A stretch of DNA of 64,000 bases from Paucibacter sp. B2R-40 (GTDB lineage: Bacteria; Pseudomonadota; Gammaproteobacteria; Burkholderiales; Burkholderiaceae_C). The notes under the pieces were generated by a model, which saw only the letters and a program-made list of their open reading frames with translations, was not told where the DNA came from and searched no databases. Shown one piece after another: positions 2,311-25,196 of the stretch. A program made the position numbers and the translations under genes. The DNA is taken from NCBI RefSeq assembly GCF_025717555.1, contig NZ_JAJIRP010000003.1:496001-560000 (forward strand), given 5' to 3'. Each line of letters starts with the position of its first letter. Within the stretch, counting starts at the first letter, position 1.

Positions 2311-3651
2311 ATGAGCCTTGTCTTTCCCCATACCTTCGTCCCCTGGTTTCGCTCCGTCGCACCCTACATCCACGCTTACCGAGGTGAAACCTTTGTCGTC
2401 GGCATGCCGGGTGAGCTGGTTGCCGCGGGCAAACTGAATGCCTTTGTGCAGGACTTATCGATCTTGCATGCGATGGGCATCAAGATCGTGCTGGTCCATG
2501 GGTTCAGACCGCAAGTCAATGAACAATTGGCCGCCAAGGGACAGTCTCCTCAATACAGCCACGGCATGCGTGTCACCGATGCCTTAGCGCTTGACTGCGC
2601 TCAAGAAGCGGCCGGCCAACTGCGCTTCGAGATCGAAGCTGCGTTCTCGCAGGGCCTGCCCAATACGCCGATGGCGAATGCCACGGTTCGGGTGGTGTCG
2701 GGCAACTTTTTGACCGCACGCCCGGTCGGCATCGTCGACGGGGTCGATTTCCAACACAGCGGCGTAGTCCGCAAAGTGGACGGGGCGGCGATTCAACGCG
2801 CCATCGATAGCGGCGCGGTTGTCTTGCTGTCGCCATTTGGCTTCTCGCCGACCGGCGAAGCCTTTAATTTGAATATGGAAGACGTGGCGACCAGCGCCGC
2901 GATCGCCCTGCAGGCGGACAAGCTGCTGTTCGTTTGCGAGGTTGACGGCGTGCACGAGCAGCCCGGCGATGTCAGCAGCCCGGTCGACACCGAGCTGACC
3001 CTGGCCGATGCCGTGCGCATGCTGGCCAACCTGCCCGCCGCGACCGAGCCGACCGATGTGGCGTTTTATTTGCGCCATTGCGTGCGGGCCTGCCAGGCCG
3101 GCGTGGAGCGCTCACACATCATCCCCTTCGCGGTGGACGGCGCGCTGCTGCAGGAGGTTTACACCCATGACGGCATCGGCACCATGGTCGTGGACGAGAA
3201 GCTGGAGAGCCTGCGCGAGGCCGGCTCCGACGATATCGGCGGCATCATCGCGCTGATCGAACCGCTGGAGCGGGACGGCACCCTGGTCAAGCGCGATCGA
3301 ACCGAAATCGAGCGCGATATTGACCTCTACACCGTCATCGAGCACGACGGTGTGATCTTCGGCTGCGCGGCCCTCTACCCCTATGTCGAGGCCCGTACCG
3401 GTGAAATGGCAGCTTTGACCGTCTCGCCGGCCGTGCAAGGCCAGGGCGACGGCGACCGCATCTTGAAACGCGTCGAGCAGCAAGCCAAATCACAGGGACT
3501 GGCCAGCATCTTTGTGCTGACCACGCGCACCATGCATTGGTTCATCAAGCGCGGCTTCCAGCCGGTTGACCCCGAGTGGCTGCCCGAAGAGCGCAAGCGC
3601 AAATACAACTGGGACCGACGCTCGCAAGTCTTGGTCAAGAAACTCAGCTGA
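2311..3651 (+). CDS. argA: Amino-acid N-acetyltransferase (N-acetylglutamate synthase)
   Basis: Catalyses acetyl-CoA plus glutamate to N-acetylglutamate, the first step of arginine synthesis. The 446-residue product matches the usual ArgA length. An N-terminal amino-acid-kinase fold (about residues 20-290; KIVLVHGFRPQVNEQL, GIVDGVDFQHSGVVRKVD) is followed by a GNAT acetyltransferase domain (about 300-446) with the acetyl-CoA loop VQGQGDGDRIL. The reading frame is open further upstream, but the ATG at 2311 (MSLVFPHTFVPWFRSVAPY) gives the family N-terminus, and longer forms would run into the divergent VOC gene. No good Shine-Dalgarno site is visible. Arginine feedback is known for the family; no operator is evident here. 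Confidence 0.95.
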   Translation: MSLVFPHTFVPWFRSVAPYIHAYRGETFVVGMPGELVAAGKLNAFVQDLSILHAMGIKIVLVHGFRPQVNEQLAAKGQSPQYSHGMRVTDALALDCAQEAAGQLRFEIEAAFSQGLPNTPMANATVRVVSGNFLTARPVGIVDGVDFQHSGVVRKVDGAAIQRAIDSGAVVLLSPFGFSPTGEAFNLNMEDVATSAAIALQADKLLFVCEVDGVHEQPGDVSSPVDTELTLADAVRMLANLPAATEPTDVAFYLRHCVRACQAGVERSHIIPFAVDGALLQEVYTHDGIGTMVVDEKLESLREAGSDDIGGIIALIEPLERDGTLVKRDRTEIERDIDLYTVIEHDGVIFGCAALYPYVEARTGEMAALTVSPAVQGQGDGDRILKRVEQQAKSQGLASIFVLTTRTMHWFIKRGFQPVDPEWLPEERKRKYNWDRRSQVLVKKLS

Positions 3652-3678
3652 TTTTTAATTTCATTCAAAGAGGTAAAT

Positions 3679-3951
3679 ATGGCCCGCACCGTGCAATGCA
3701 TTTACATGAAAAAAGAGGGCGAAGGCATGGACTTCGCGCCCTACCCTGGGGACTTGGGCAAGCGCATTTACCAGAATGTCTGCAAAGAAGGCTGGGCAGC
3801 CTGGATGAAGCACCAGACCATGCTGGTGAATGAAAACCGTCTGAACCTCGCCGACCAACGCGCCCGCCAATACCTGGCAAGGCAAATGGAGCAGTTTTTC
3901 TTCGGCGAAGGCGCCGAAGCGGTGGCGGGTTACGTCCCGCCAACGGCCTGA
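3679..3951 (+). CDS. yggX: Fe(2+)-trafficking / oxidative damage protection protein
   Basis: A 90-residue YggX-family protein: [19 protein letters not shown] at the N-terminus with the conserved Cys7, then [19 protein letters not shown] and the [17 protein letters not shown] stretch that is nearly invariant in the family. The protein is known to help keep Fe(2+) available for iron-sulfur clusters and to protect against superoxide. It begins 27 bases after argA, with AGAGG at 3669-3673, and could be co-transcribed. The next gene is an iron ABC-binding protein, which fits an iron theme, although a hairpin and a Fur-box-like palindrome separate the two. Confidence 0.93.
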
Positions 3952-22207: not shown

Positions 22208-22380
22208 TCAATACTCGTCGCCACTCACCCCCACATAGCCGGGTGCGAGATTCTCAAACTTGGTGTGCATGCGCTGGAAGAACAGCTTGACCGTACCGAC
22301 GGGACCATTTCGCTGCTTGGCGATGATGATCTCGGCAATGCCCGGCTCTTTGGACTCTTCCTTCATGTAGTAGCCCACCA
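22208..22380 (-). pseudogene. 3' fragment of replicative helicase gene dnaB
   Basis: Reading the minus strand gives [20 protein letters not shown], then [17 protein letters not shown] and [18 protein letters not shown] followed by a stop at 22208-22210. This is the C-terminal end of DnaB: the AEIII-KQRNGP-GTVKL stretch is nearly invariant and the ending matches betaproteobacterial DnaB. Only about 56 codons remain of an expected 460; the similarity stops abruptly at about 22378, where a different gene piece begins. The true 3' end and stop are kept. It may be a leftover of a deletion or one end of an element inserted in the 3' part of dnaB. Confidence 0.82.
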
Positions 22381-22626
22381 ACCATCACGCGCCTCTACAG
22401 CGGCACTTACCTGCTGGACAAAAACCACAAGGAGTGGGAATTTGCCTTGCTGTTCGTGCGCGTTTTTCACGCGCTGGACTCCGTCGTCGGTGACGCATCG
22501 ATCGCCCGCAAGTGGCTTGGCAGTGACAACCTTTGCTTGAACGCCAAGCCAATCGAGATGATTCGCAACACTGAAGGTCTGGTGCGTGTCGTTCAATACC
22601 TTGACGCCAGCCCTGGCCTCGCCTGA
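22375..22626 (+). pseudogene. C-terminal part of a DUF2384 (MbcA/ParS/Xre-type) antitoxin
   Basis: An open frame without a start codon reads [80 protein letters not shown] and stops at 22624-22626. The ARKWL-N-L-P-E-I-T-GL-V-YLDA pattern is the toxin-binding domain (DUF2384) of antitoxins that pair with RES-domain toxins. The N-terminal part is missing at the junction with the dnaB fragment, and no RES toxin gene follows. It is most likely a dead remnant. Assignment rests on motif pattern, not a search. Confidence 0.65.
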
Positions 22627-22663
22627 CGCGGTTGCTTGGGCAGGAGCCTTGTAGCGCAGCAGC

Positions 22664-22957
22664 CTCGCGCAGGACGCGAACAAAGGTCTCTACAAGGCGT
22701 GAGGCGGATACTGGCTTGTGCATCAAGGGCAAGCCCAGGCGAGCCGCTTCCGCAGCCGAGGCTGCATCGACGTCTGCTGTGACAATCAGCGCGGAGAGTT
22801 CTTCGCCGCATGCCGCCTGTACGTGGCGGATGGCACCAAAGCCGTCACCGCTTGCGACAAGGCCCAGATCCGTGACGAGCAGGTCTGAAATACGTAGGTG
22901 CTGCGCCAACTCGCTGCATGCTGCTACAGCGGAGCAGCATGCCAACCACCGAGCCAC
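22664..22957 (-). pseudogene. Broken response-regulator receiver domain
   Basis: The minus-strand frame from 22957 gives LRISDLLVTDLGLVASGDGF, GAIRHVQAACGEELSALIVT and ADVDAASAAEAARLGLPLMH-KPVSASRLV. These are beta-3 with the phospho-Asp (LLVTD), beta-4 (ALIVTAD) and beta-5 with the conserved Lys-Pro of a receiver domain, in the style found at the C-terminus of hybrid histidine kinases. The first beta strand and acidic pair are missing, and after about residue 98 the frame continues only as an antisense shadow of the antitoxin piece. It is therefore a fragment, presumably of a lost hybrid kinase. Confidence 0.6.
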
Positions 22958-23006
22958 CCCATTGAATGCAAATGGCTTCTAAGCTCTGGCGGTTGCCCTC
23001 AGCCGA

Positions 23007-23759
23007 CTAAGAAAACAGTTCTCGCTCGATCAGTGCCAAGTAGCGATTCGTATAGAACAAGTCGGGCTGATGTGGTCGCGGACGAACCAGGACCAAAAAG
23101 CCGGGAGTTTTCGGATCATCAAGATCAAAGGTGACCAGGCCGACACCAGAGATCTCGCAGAGTGCATCCAAGCGAGCGATTTCGTCGGCATTTGCTTGAC
23201 GAGGAATGACTAGATACGAGCGGTGGCTGAACAGACGGTATGCACAGGCCTGGCCGTAGGCCGTTACGAGTTGCATTGTGTCCGCCTTGATCTCTGCCGC
23301 GACGATTTCAGTGGGAACCTTGATCACGTCGCTGCGCTTTGACTCTCGCTTGCCGATCACATCAGGCGTTCCCCAACGATCCCGGAAGATGTTACCGCCA
23401 AGTGGAATGGCGTGGGTTGCTTCCTCGGCCTCGTTCTTCAGCCAGTCTGCGAACGGCGAATAGAACTGATCTTGACGGACCTTTGGTTGAGCTGGTCCCG
23501 CTCGGACGATGGGCTCGTCGGTGGCTTCAGGCTCCTTATAGTCAGCGTGGCGGTAGAGGCCTTTTGATGGCTTCCAGACCGACTCAGGCAGGACCACGTC
23601 CAAGTTCCAGATTGTCGAGTTGATTGTTCCCGTGTTGAACGACGGCGGCCCATCGCGCAGCCTGCGGAACAATTCCGAGTAATGCAGCCCTTCAGGGTGC
23701 GCCTTGATCAACTCCACCGCCTGCAGTTTGATCCGTTCTCTGATGCCTGGTGCCTTCAT
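23007..23759 (-). CDS. Winged-helix protein with PD-(D/E)XK nuclease-like domain
   Basis: A 250-residue protein of unknown role. Residues 5-73 look like a winged helix-turn-helix (AVELIKAHPEGLHYSELFRR, then TGTINSTIWNL and KGLYRH). Residues 95-190 carry a restriction-endonuclease-like core: the Asp of WGTPDVIG (Asp133), the E-x-K of IVAAEIKAD (Glu156, Lys158) and a conserved-looking Gln170 in AYGQACAYRLFSHRSYLVIP. Spacing and order fit PD-(D/E)XK nucleases. Upstream and divergent is a small XRE regulator, a layout seen for restriction and defence genes; no methyltransferase is present, so a standard restriction-modification pair is not supported. The ATG at 23759 has no clear ribosome-binding site. 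It lies in a scrambled accessory segment. Confidence 0.65.
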   Translation of the reverse strand: MKAPGIRERIKLQAVELIKAHPEGLHYSELFRRLRDGPPSFNTGTINSTIWNLDVVLPESVWKPSKGLYRHADYKEPEATDEPIVRAGPAQPKVRQDQFYSPFADWLKNEAEEATHAIPLGGNIFRDRWGTPDVIGKRESKRSDVIKVPTEIVAAEIKADTMQLVTAYGQACAYRLFSHRSYLVIPRQANADEIARLDALCEISGVGLVTFDLDDPKTPGFLVLVRPRPHQPDLFYTNRYLALIERELFS

Positions 23760-23830
23760 ATCAGGAGAGGATTCCCAGTTGGTTCGTTTCGCACACAGGC
23801 ATCAATAGTTTCTCCAGATTCGCGCAATGA

Positions 23831-23842
23831 ACGCTATAGCGT
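23831..23842. promoter_or_regulatory. Palindrome between the nuclease-like and XRE genes
   Basis: ACGCTATAGCGT is a perfect 12-bp palindrome, followed directly by a second TAGCG (GTGTAGCGCT), in the 132-base gap between the two divergent starts. It is well placed to be the operator of the XRE protein. This is inference from position and symmetry. Confidence 0.45.
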
Positions 23843-23870
23843 GTAGCGCTTTGGCATTCTAGGTGAGGAA

Positions 23871-23891
23871 ATCAAGGTTTTACGCCTTGAT
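23871..23891 (+). promoter_or_regulatory. Inverted repeat between Shine-Dalgarno and XRE start
   Basis: ATCAAGG, a 7-base loop and CCTTGAT end on the base before the ATG. GAGGAA (23865-23870) lies directly before the repeat, too far from the ATG (21 bases) to act unless the hairpin forms and brings it next to the start. It may be a translational switch or a second operator. Confidence 0.45.
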
Positions 23892-24188
23892 ATGAAGAAC
23901 TCACCTCAGAACCACCTCGCTAGCGCGCTGCGCAAGGCTCGAAATGCAGCCGGTCTGTCCCAAGAGGAGTTCGGCGCGGTCTCTGGGCGGACGTACATCA
24001 GCCAGTTGGAGCGAGGTGAACGCCAAGCCACGCTGGCGAAGATTGATGATCTCGCCTCCGTGTTGCAGATACACCCCGCAGCACTTGTTGCTCTTGCCTA
24101 CCTTCCTGATCAAGCTGGAGAGGACGCTGTGGAGAAGCTTCTGACGACGGTCCGCGAGGAACTGATGGCGATGCTGGCTGCAGGCTAG
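23892..24188 (+). CDS. Small XRE-family (HTH_3) transcriptional regulator
   Basis: A 98-residue DNA-binding protein. Residues 9-66 form a Cro/C1-type helix-turn-helix: LASALRKARNAAGLSQEEFG, then RTYISQLERGERQATLAKID and a final helix LASVLQIHPAALVALAY. The remaining 30 residues are an acidic helical tail (EDAVEKLLTTVREELMAMLA). Size and sequence style recall controller proteins of restriction systems and phage-type repressors. It is divergent from the nuclease-like gene, with palindromes in the shared gap, so it probably controls that gene and itself. No classical ribosome-binding site stands at the right distance; see the inverted repeat just before the ATG. Confidence 0.8.
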   Translation: MKNSPQNHLASALRKARNAAGLSQEEFGAVSGRTYISQLERGERQATLAKIDDLASVLQIHPAALVALAYLPDQAGEDAVEKLLTTVREELMAMLAAG

Positions 24189-24402
24189 CGGATAAGCAGC
24201 AAAGGTCCGAAAGGCAACCAGTGGCAGATAGGCAGCCCTGTGCGTCGAAGGTTTCAAGGGCTATTTGCATTCTGAGGTTGGAAACTAGGCGACAACGGCG
24301 CCTTGAAACCAGTCTGATTTGTGCAAAATCTGGTTGCCCAGCACAAAAACCTAGCGGCCCGCTGTGAGCGATGCAGGGTTGAAATACCAAATGGAAAGCG
24401 TC

Positions 24403-24892
24403 TGCACCGCAGCGACTGCGGCCATTGGCGGTGGAGAGCCGGACTCACGGTGCGGGCCGCCCAGCCGTCACTGACCGGAGCAGAGTTTGCGGCGCGGATG
24501 TCCGGTCTCGAATGTGCTGCAGTCATTCAGAGGAGCCGCTCACGAAATCGTCGGTCAACCGGAGTCGAAGGGCTACTGTTTGACTCGTCGAATAAGCGCG
24601 ATCGACTCCATAGGAGTCGATCGTTCCCTCGTCATCTGCGGCAGCAGTGTGCCCATTGCGGGCATCCAAAGTCACGCTTTCTAAGTCAACGATGCAGCTG
24701 CTGCAGCCTTTGGCGGTCAAGGGCCAGACTCACGGTGCCTGCCACTCAGCGGTCACTGACCCGCCCCAGTGTTGGCTGCACCGATGTCGGGTATCGAATG
24801 TGCTGCGGTCATTCAGGTCGGCAACTCATTCGGCCTCAATAGGCCGCGGTCAAATGTCCAACGCTTGAACCGTCGAATAGGCGGTACCGATC
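24403..24892 (+). repeat. Two diverged direct repeats, offset about 286 bases
   Basis: Copy 1 (about 24403-24604) and copy 2 (about 24689-24892) share several exact blocks in the same order. These include GGACTCACGGTGC against AGACTCACGGTGC, CGTCACTGACC against GGTCACTGACC, TCGAATGTGCTGC followed by GTCATTCAG in both, and a closing CGTCGAATA-GCG. Offsets of the blocks are 285-287 bases. Neither copy is coding. Confidence 0.7.
24599..24623. other. 11-bp perfect hairpin at the end of repeat copy 1
   Basis: CGATCGACTCC, an ATA loop and GGAGTCGATCG form a perfect stem. No T-run follows, so it is not a typical terminator. It marks the end of the first direct-repeat copy. Confidence 0.6.
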
Positions 24893-25040
24893 CTTAGAAA
24901 TCATTCGCGGTAGACAAGACCAGTCGCTCACTCCTCCAGCGATTGCCAAGAACCTTACATGCCGACGTTAACGATTGCCGCAGACGGTAGCAGAATCTTT
25001 GCACCCCGCAAGCAGAAACTAAGCACCTCAACGGCACCAA

Positions 25041-25196
25041 CTACACCGGCCAGCTGCCCTGAATCAGCTGGATCACGGCCGCCGGCGGCACCGACTGCAG
25101 CAGCGATTGGGTGAAGCGGTCGCCCATGACCGGCTGGTAGGTCACCGTCGGCGTGTTCGACCAACTGCCCTCGCCGCCCAGCCGCAGCAGACTGGT
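25041..25196 (-). pseudogene. Possible fragment of a hypothetical lipoprotein gene
   Basis: The minus-strand frame reads SLLRLGGEGSWSNTPTVTYQ, PVMGDRFTQSLLQSVPPAAV, IQLIQGSWPV and stops. This resembles, from memory, the N-terminal half of an uncharacterised proteobacterial lipoprotein family in which a TVTYxPLxGxxFxxSLLxPIP stretch is conserved. Both ends are missing, so it would be debris. The recognition is weak and needs a search. Confidence 0.3.

Follow-up and report, generated by a model that had tools for sequence, protein, structure and literature searches.

A winged-helix PD-(D/E)XK protein and a divergent XRE regulator in Paucibacter: a candidate restriction-type module without a methyltransferase

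Results

A nuclease-like gene and a regulator gene diverge from a common control region

The window, by which we mean the whole stretch of 64,000 nucleotides of Paucibacter sp. B2R-40 DNA that was analyzed, carries two divergent genes, one for a nuclease-like protein and one for a small XRE-type regulator, on either side of a 132-bp gap (Table 1). Both the divergent reading frames and the gap had been described in an earlier prediction made from the sequence alone (the original prediction), and both are present. A 12-bp palindrome and a second inverted repeat had likewise been noticed within the gap, and each proved to be real (23831-23842 and 23871-23891). Among 5,000 dinucleotide shuffles of the gap, a palindrome of this kind arose in 2.2%, an inverted repeat of this kind in 4.0%, and both together in 0.2%. 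No sigma-70-like promoter was found in the 132-bp gap. Comparison of the window nuclease gene with its counterpart in Roseateles puraquae (locus L001) gave a dN of 0.13 with synonymous sites saturated (NG86), implying that the gene is under selection.

Table 1. Features of the gene pair, its intergenic region, and the surrounding block (positions are those of the window)
Feature	Position	Strand	Basis or remark
Truncated dnaB 3' end, last 54 codons; left edge of the unshared block	22211-22373	-	Sister-genome comparison
Block with no colinear counterpart in sister genomes G003/G005; carries the pair	22374..25043	.	Genome comparison
Nuclease-like gene, 250 aa, ATG start	23007..23759	-	ORF call
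Winged helix (about 1-73) and PD-(D/E)XK domain (about 92-250), predicted	within 23007..23759	-	AF2 model, fold matches
Intergenic control region common to both genes, 132 bp	23760..23891	.	Between divergent ORFs
Conserved operator-like block, 36 bp, both dyads	23827..23862	.	34/36 identical to L001
Perfect 12-bp palindrome ACGCTATAGCGT	23831-23842	.	Sequence
Imperfect dyad	23847-23856	.	Centre 15 bp from palindrome's centre
Second inverted repeat ATCAAGG-7 nt-CCTTGAT	23871-23877 / 23885-23891	.	Abuts XRE start codon
XRE-type regulator gene, 98 aa, ATG start, C-protein-like	23892..24188	+	HTH_3, Control_protein matches

The nuclease-like protein is predicted to join a winged helix to a PD-(D/E)XK core

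The window protein was modeled with AlphaFold2 from a 16-row alignment, and this model superseded one built from 7 rows, which had a pLDDT of 61 and no usable nuclease core. The later model has a mean pLDDT of 86.0 and a pTM of 0.61, with a single stretch below 50 at residues 77 to 92. Structure prediction had been proposed as a check on the original prediction and, together with the fold matches given below, it returned a PD-(D/E)XK nuclease fold. A helix (96-109), three strands (116-119, 134-138, and 151-157), a second helix (161-174), and a fourth strand (180-186) are laid out across residues 96 to 211 in the order of the PD-(D/E)XK core. The predicted alpha-beta-beta-beta-alpha-beta core thus carries the D...(D/E)xK motif at its strands, D133 immediately preceding strand 134-138 and E156 lying within strand 151-157. 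The complete Asp...Glu-x-Lys core that had been read from the sequence (D133, E156, and K158) lies at these positions and is invariant in 18 of 18 aligned relatives; I157 and a GQA motif (G169-Q170-A171) are also invariant across these full-length members.

Candidates returned by Foldseek were re-scored with VIA-align 2. For residues 92 to 250, the two best chains were SPO1766 (3dnx; Z 12.6, rmsd 3.1, 130 aligned) and PaqCI, a restriction enzyme of type IIS (8epx; Z 12.5, rmsd 2.8, 135 aligned). These two and MmcB-like domains are the best fold matches, yet identity to SPO1766 and PaqCI is 12 to 15%. Neither chain appears in the best 50 Foldseek rows, and the best Foldseek match among those listed is 2ph7 (E = 3.1e-4). 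The N-terminal domain is a common winged helix, scoring a Z of about 9 against cullin rows and 7.5 against Rok in VIA-align 2. In a sequence-profile search, the best solved relative was the Rok winged helix (E = 0.001 over positions 7 to 81); apart from a short zinc-finger chain (0.046), no further name came up at E up to 10. A winged helix ahead of the nuclease core, as originally proposed, is therefore supported by the Rok profile match, by Foldseek, and by VIA-align 2.

The nuclease had not been recognized as part of a named system, and profile searches agree, in that no Pfam or NCBIfam match exceeded its curated cut-off and the PADLOC and PHROG matches were weak. The window nuclease itself gave zero matches at E up to 1 in Pfam, NCBIfam, PADLOC, and PHROGs, including none to the defense models of PADLOC-DB 2.0.0 and none to the HARE-HTH profile (PF05066); phmmer against solved structures reached a best E of 0.15, with unrelated names. 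Among the 18 relatives, PADLOC returned two AbiEi models and 'cll' alone, at E 4.5e-4 or worse. The Pfam Rok domain was matched in 5 of the 18 (best E 0.011) and HARE-HTH in 2 (best E 0.0038), while NCBIfam sce7726 matched the nuclease domain of L031 at E 4.6e-5, yet with 23 bits against a cut-off of 70.

The nuclease family is rare and patchily distributed

We collected 21 distinct nuclease loci, the window included. Eight of them lie on genome contigs, one is a second copy in the window's own genome, and the others come from one congener, one conjugative megaplasmid, four more genomes, and five contigs of a virus collection. The family is rare and patchy. With the window's own genome included in each count, it was found in 2 of 59 relatives, 3 of 399 genomes of the taxonomic family, 3 of 369 of the class (two of these being partial matches), and 5 of 398 of the phylum (one being partial). 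No relatives were found by tblastn against phages or among viral contigs searched with the single window sequence. The partial matches (L016, L017, and L022) stand outside the 21 loci; L007 and L008 belong to the 21 but not to the 18-row alignment or the 19-row tree, and L058 was used for the tree but left out of the alignment. At L007 the nuclease gene is interrupted by a stop codon (around 10496) and at L008 by a change of frame (around 10400). Because both are metagenome assemblies, these breaks may be errors, and decay is indistinguishable here from assembly error.

These data bear on the idea that the protein is a DNA-repair nuclease of the MmcB or EndoMS kind, with the XRE protein merely setting its level. 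EndoMS and a related repair endonuclease were the next rows in VIA-align 2 (Z 8.2 to 8.6), four viral rows in BFVD carry the name MmcB or MmcB-like DNA repair (E from 7.2e-7 to 8.1e-5, with an uncharacterized protein ranking first at 5.5e-8), and a PHROG family called 'DNA repair protein' was matched in 2 of the 18 members at E 0.17. SPO1766, the top fold match, is a protein of unknown function that we take to be MmcB-like, and on these models its rank and the MmcB-named viral matches would fit a repair role too. A PD-(D/E)XK core shared by predicted models does not, by itself, establish MmcB membership, and no MmcB-like family appeared among the Pfam and NCBIfam matches of the 18 relatives at E up to 1, although both libraries presumably contain an MmcB model. 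Given the rare, patchy spread (3/399), the occurrence of two divergent members in one genome (the window copy and L025), the restriction neighbors in several branches, and the broken copies at L007 and L008, we consider a repair function unlikely.

Restriction and other defense genes adjoin several relatives

Known defense genes were recognized at 7 of the 21 loci, a figure that is not unbiased, since the 30 neighbors scanned came from 12 loci and were picked by eye, leaving nine loci (L005, L007, L008, L028 to L031, L034, and L058) with no profile-scanned neighbor. At the other 14, the window and these nine among them, no defense gene was recognized. Dnd and BREX genes were not recognized among the 30 scanned neighbors. 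The proposed association with defense islands is thus seen for some relatives, whereas no defense gene was recognized at the window copy.

By profile scan, type I HsdM, HsdS, and HsdR lie beside the second pair of the window's own genome (L025), and at L036 HsdR follows the nuclease gene after 333 nt and is itself followed by a frame with HsdM and HsdS domains. An N6_N4 methylase (Mod) and Res precede the nuclease at L006, the gap after Res being 14 nt; at L004, Mod, Res, a 581-aa gene, and the nuclease stand in one run, in which the 581-aa gene intervenes. At L012 an Eco57I-type methylase ends 18 nt before the nuclease and an ABC-3C middle component comes after it. AbiH begins 50 nt after the nuclease at L033, and a reverse transcriptase gene lies before it at L002.

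Some of these arrangements deserve a fuller description. The paralogous XRE/nuclease pair and the adjoining hsdM-hsdS-hsdR set span 1976-9469 of L025. On the Novosphingobium megaplasmid (L012, 11005-13460), an AAA ATPase accompanies the ABC-3C middle component after the nuclease, on the opposite strand. The AbiH gene occupies 6798-7823 of L033, a locus with a G+C content of 0.33 on a contig from a virus collection, and some 3.6 kb further on lies a DNA methylase. Upstream of the L002 pair (2429-3801), an XRE-like ORF overlaps the gene for the 350-aa reverse transcriptase, possibly forming an RT defense unit.

A systematic search for methylases was made with PF02384 and PF01555 in all 20 genomes or records. 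Such a gene was found within 8 kb at 3 of 16 cellular or plasmid loci (L025, L004, and L006), where 0.36 were expected (P = 0.004), an enrichment carried by three positives. The expectation was derived from the number of such genes per genome, with neighboring matches merged by hand; the 16 loci leave out the five virus records, sub-cut-off matches were not counted, and several of the loci have less than 8 kb of DNA on one side. L012 enters this test as a miss despite its Eco57I-type methylase, which both profiles overlooked, and a motif check of the 16 flanks added L012 alone as an extra candidate, with chance-like motifs in L003, L026, and L031. The window's contig (C23) contains no PF02384 or PF01555 match, and long frames within 8 kb of the pair contain no DPPY/NPPY-type motif, in keeping with the original claim that the pair has no methyltransferase.

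The restriction neighbors raise the question of whether the protein might serve type I and III restriction systems as an accessory nuclease or a cleavage subunit, with the window copy as a displaced survivor. The positions after Res at L006, within the Mod-Res run at L004, beside XRE-HsdM at L025, and before HsdR at L036 would suit such a subunit. However, these neighbors are of differing types and are scattered on the tree, where the five restriction-neighbor rows need 4 changes (gains or losses) against a mean of 4.6 for shuffled labels, so that they do not represent one inherited cluster. In addition, most of the loci read show no such system, and the L004 Res has a RE_endonuc domain of its own. 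We therefore regard an accessory role as quite unlikely. We also considered, and rejected, a nuclease that supplies a domain missing from Res: the L006 Res has no Pfam RE_endonuc match, yet its C terminus resembles one by eye.

The regulator is lineage specific and is accompanied by conserved two-dyad blocks

The small controller-type partner of the original prediction is upheld by profile matches: the window XRE protein matches HTH_3 (E = 1.7e-12), and its best PADLOC model is the restriction 'Control_protein' (E = 3.7e-10). A profile of five XREs was run on all ORFs within 1.5 kb upstream of the nuclease gene at the 19 loci with upstream DNA, L030 and L035 having none. A divergent XRE is present at 5 of the 19, and no XRE of this kind lies within 1.5 kb upstream at the other 14; because the profile was built from those five XREs, no similar XRE was overlooked, while other regulators are not thereby excluded. 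The five XRE-bearing loci form one clade (support 96/96; present in 98% of 200 bootstrap trees). Conservation of the pair across genomes, which the original prediction implied, thus holds within one clade and not family-wide, and the module is best described as the nuclease plus a lineage-specific regulator. The XRE of L001, also divergent, is 59% identical to that of the window, and the XRE of the own-genome paralogue (L025) is 40% identical. At L002, where the nuclease is 74% identical to the window nuclease, the gap contains a different palindrome, and a tblastn search with the window XRE (E 0.01) did not detect the divergent HTH_3 regulator. The regulator's place has therefore been kept, while the regulator itself has diverged or been exchanged.

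Conservation within the gap is concentrated in the operator-like block. Between the window and L001, identity is 34/36 in this block compared to 64/113 in the remaining aligned stretch, and such clustering is rare under column permutation (p = 0.00015). In L001 the two dyads, TGCTAAAGCA and ACGCTATAGCGT, are both perfect, whereas in the window the first of these is imperfect; the ATCAAGG/CCTTGAT repeat is kept in L001 in part only. With up to 3 mismatches allowed, the 29-bp core of this block has a single occurrence in the window's own genome, a single one in that of L001, and none in two other genomes, suggesting a dedicated site. L025 and L026 have a 32-bp block that is identical at 32/32 positions, compared to 83/180 elsewhere (0/20,000 permutations), and that reads ACTTTGAGT-CTACAG-ACTTTGAGT, with centers 15 bp apart. 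Two branches of the XRE clade therefore each keep a different two-dyad block with the same 15-bp spacing of centers, an organization that, judged from sequence, resembles the boxes bound by C proteins.

The arrangement could also be a toxin-antitoxin-like addiction pair in which the nuclease is the toxin and the XRE protein a direct antitoxin. The divergent XRE does have a HipB-like score (TIGR03070, E 1e-7), at 31.8 bits against a cut-off of 71.65, and the two AbiEi models match nuclease members weakly, in 3/18 and 1/18 cases (best E 4.5e-4). But no such XRE adjoins 14 of the 19 relatives for which upstream DNA was available, and tblastn at E 0.01 did not find the XRE of L002 beside a nuclease that is 74% identical, a pattern more in keeping with a controller of promoters than with an antitoxin that binds its toxin. 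An addiction pair is, in our judgment, distinctly improbable.

The window pair lies at a synteny breakpoint

In the sister genomes G003 and G005, the DNA that the window shares with them up to 22373 continues through dnaB. The window has instead the truncated end of this gene (Table 1), followed by unshared DNA whose right edge falls between 25044 (G005) and 25320 (G003), beyond which the window aligns colinearly with a different region of the sister genomes. An intact dnaB is found at the start of another contig (G000:C47:1505-2941, minus strand), followed by 1.5 kb of other DNA, and the 146-bp ends of the two dnaB copies are 96% identical, as site-specific integration or duplication would leave them. 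The pair thus sits at a break in synteny, inside some 2.7 kb of unshared DNA, and to this extent the hot spot of gene turnover seen by the original prediction is supported. The unshared DNA has a G+C content of 0.57, lower than on its left (0.60) or right (0.62), and the third-position G+C is 0.65, compared to 0.78 to 0.79 for iclR and dnaK.

We considered whether the block is a site-specific element in dnaB, which the duplicated 146-bp end would fit. Because the DNA beyond 25044 has its native place elsewhere in the sister genomes and the sole PF00589 integrase match on C23 lies 280 kb away, a rearrangement with the pair at its junction is just as likely. A mobile-element gene for excision or transposition, of the XisH type, is very improbable: although Foldseek lists XisH-family chains (2inb, E 0.026; 2okf, E 0.072), the pair stands at a breakpoint with a duplicated dnaB end, and one relative (in G012) adjoins a possible recombinase gene, the XisH matches are weak and no PF00589 integrase is near the pair on C23.

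Two further observations concern the surroundings of the pairs. The G012 relative (L026, 3654-9394) adjoins four same-strand genes of 475, 643, 648, and 125 aa, the first with a weak integrase SAM-like match (E 0.0046, below the cut-off), which may together be a multi-gene recombinase module. Within the window, 24409-24816 contains two diverged copies of a roughly 120-bp repeat that has more copies elsewhere in the genome (e.g., C47:283-429) and in the sister genomes. Scans of the window with Rfam (gathering threshold) and for tRNAs were empty.

Discussion

The nuclease fold, the intact motif, its conservation, the dedicated operator-like block, the patchy spread, and the methylase enrichment are results of computation. 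From them we infer cleavage, target choice, repression, and defense, and we lean, with confidence slightly better than even, toward the pair being a methyltransferase-free, restriction-type nuclease under C-protein-like control that is exchanged horizontally. The sequence observations of the original prediction are thereby borne out as a whole, and its interpretation is partly supported. On our proposal, the winged helix would pick out DNA by a modified base, or by a sequence or shape that the host seldom has, and the C-terminal domain would cut the DNA so selected. The XRE protein would bind the 23827-23862 block, hold the nuclease low, and regulate itself; with the nuclease kept low in this way, the gene could enter new hosts without killing them. 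The outcome would be protection against phage or plasmid DNA, as from a type IV or solitary restriction gene, which in some cases has a type I or III system as its neighbor.

If this is correct, the pair is a compact restriction gene that draws its self-protection from something other than a methyltransferase and for which a dedicated C-type controller has been re-used. The ways in which a lone nuclease distinguishes self from foreign DNA and is transferred safely would become testable, and a nuclease family that neighbors several different restriction systems would gain a name.

Type II restriction-modification systems with C proteins are described as having a small XRE regulator and a locus-dedicated operator of two near-palindromes, GACT-tat-AGTC (PMC4824078). 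Going by sequence alone, the window locus has the C-type XRE and the two-dyad operator of such systems and shares their dedication to one locus. It differs in having no methyltransferase, in a regulator that is divergent from the nuclease gene, and in dyads that read ACTTTGAGT or ACGCTATAGCGT in place of the GACT-tat-AGTC described there.

For the nuclease, one comparison is with the 6mA-dependent type IV enzymes of the PD-(D/E)XK-wH kind (DpnI, FcyTI, and Psp4BI), 87% of which are reported to have no methylase among the three genes on either side (PMC11037411). A winged helix and a PD-(D/E)XK domain are joined in one protein in both cases, usually without a methylase in the published set. By the measure of a type IV enzyme, the lack of a cognate methyltransferase, there is none on the window's contig and one within 8 kb at 3 of 16 loci. 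The domain order is reversed, however, since the published enzymes have the nuclease first and the window protein has its winged helix at 1-73 and nuclease at 92-250. Several relatives of the window protein also adjoin adenine-methylase-type genes of type I or III systems, where a reader of any 6mA would probably attack its own host, and on this ground we rejected a general 6mA-dependent nuclease.

A second comparison is with fusions of HARE-HTH to a restriction endonuclease (REase) domain, which have been proposed to tell modified DNA beside Dnd genes (PMC10853773) and are named among BREX effectors (PMC12839542). They resemble the window protein in combining a winged-type HTH with a REase, in lying beside defense systems, and in their proposed reading of modification; the window protein differs in giving no HARE-HTH match, and a divergent C-type XRE does not figure in the portions of these two papers that treat the fusions. 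Our literature searches on the nuclease/XRE pairing and its neighbors found no paper. Since a HARE-HTH or winged helix joined to a REase is in print as a predicted or demonstrated modification-reading nuclease, the word 'undescribed' in the original prediction fits this family and its pairing with an XRE, and not the idea, which is known in outline.

Rok is a xenogeneic silencer that tells foreign from self DNA with its winged-helix domain, and it is not known to carry a nuclease itself. The resemblance of this domain (5zuz/5zux) to that of the window protein extends beyond the profile match to single residues: K171, R174, and G175 of Rok align with K63 (invariant), K/R66 (18/18), and G67 (invariant), whereas N154 and T156 of Rok align with T45 and N47. 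Residues with which Rok binds DNA include K171, R174, N154, and T156 (PMC6212790). There is a small chance, in our estimate, that the winged helix works as a minor-groove reader of the Rok type, marking DNA as foreign by its shape or motif density and not by methylation. Such a reader would carry a nuclease, providing restriction without a methyltransferase or a modified target, and would be tamed by a C-protein-like repressor. Candidates for its contacts with DNA would be K63, which is invariant, the wing residues K/R66 and G67, and T45 and N47, where the third helix begins.
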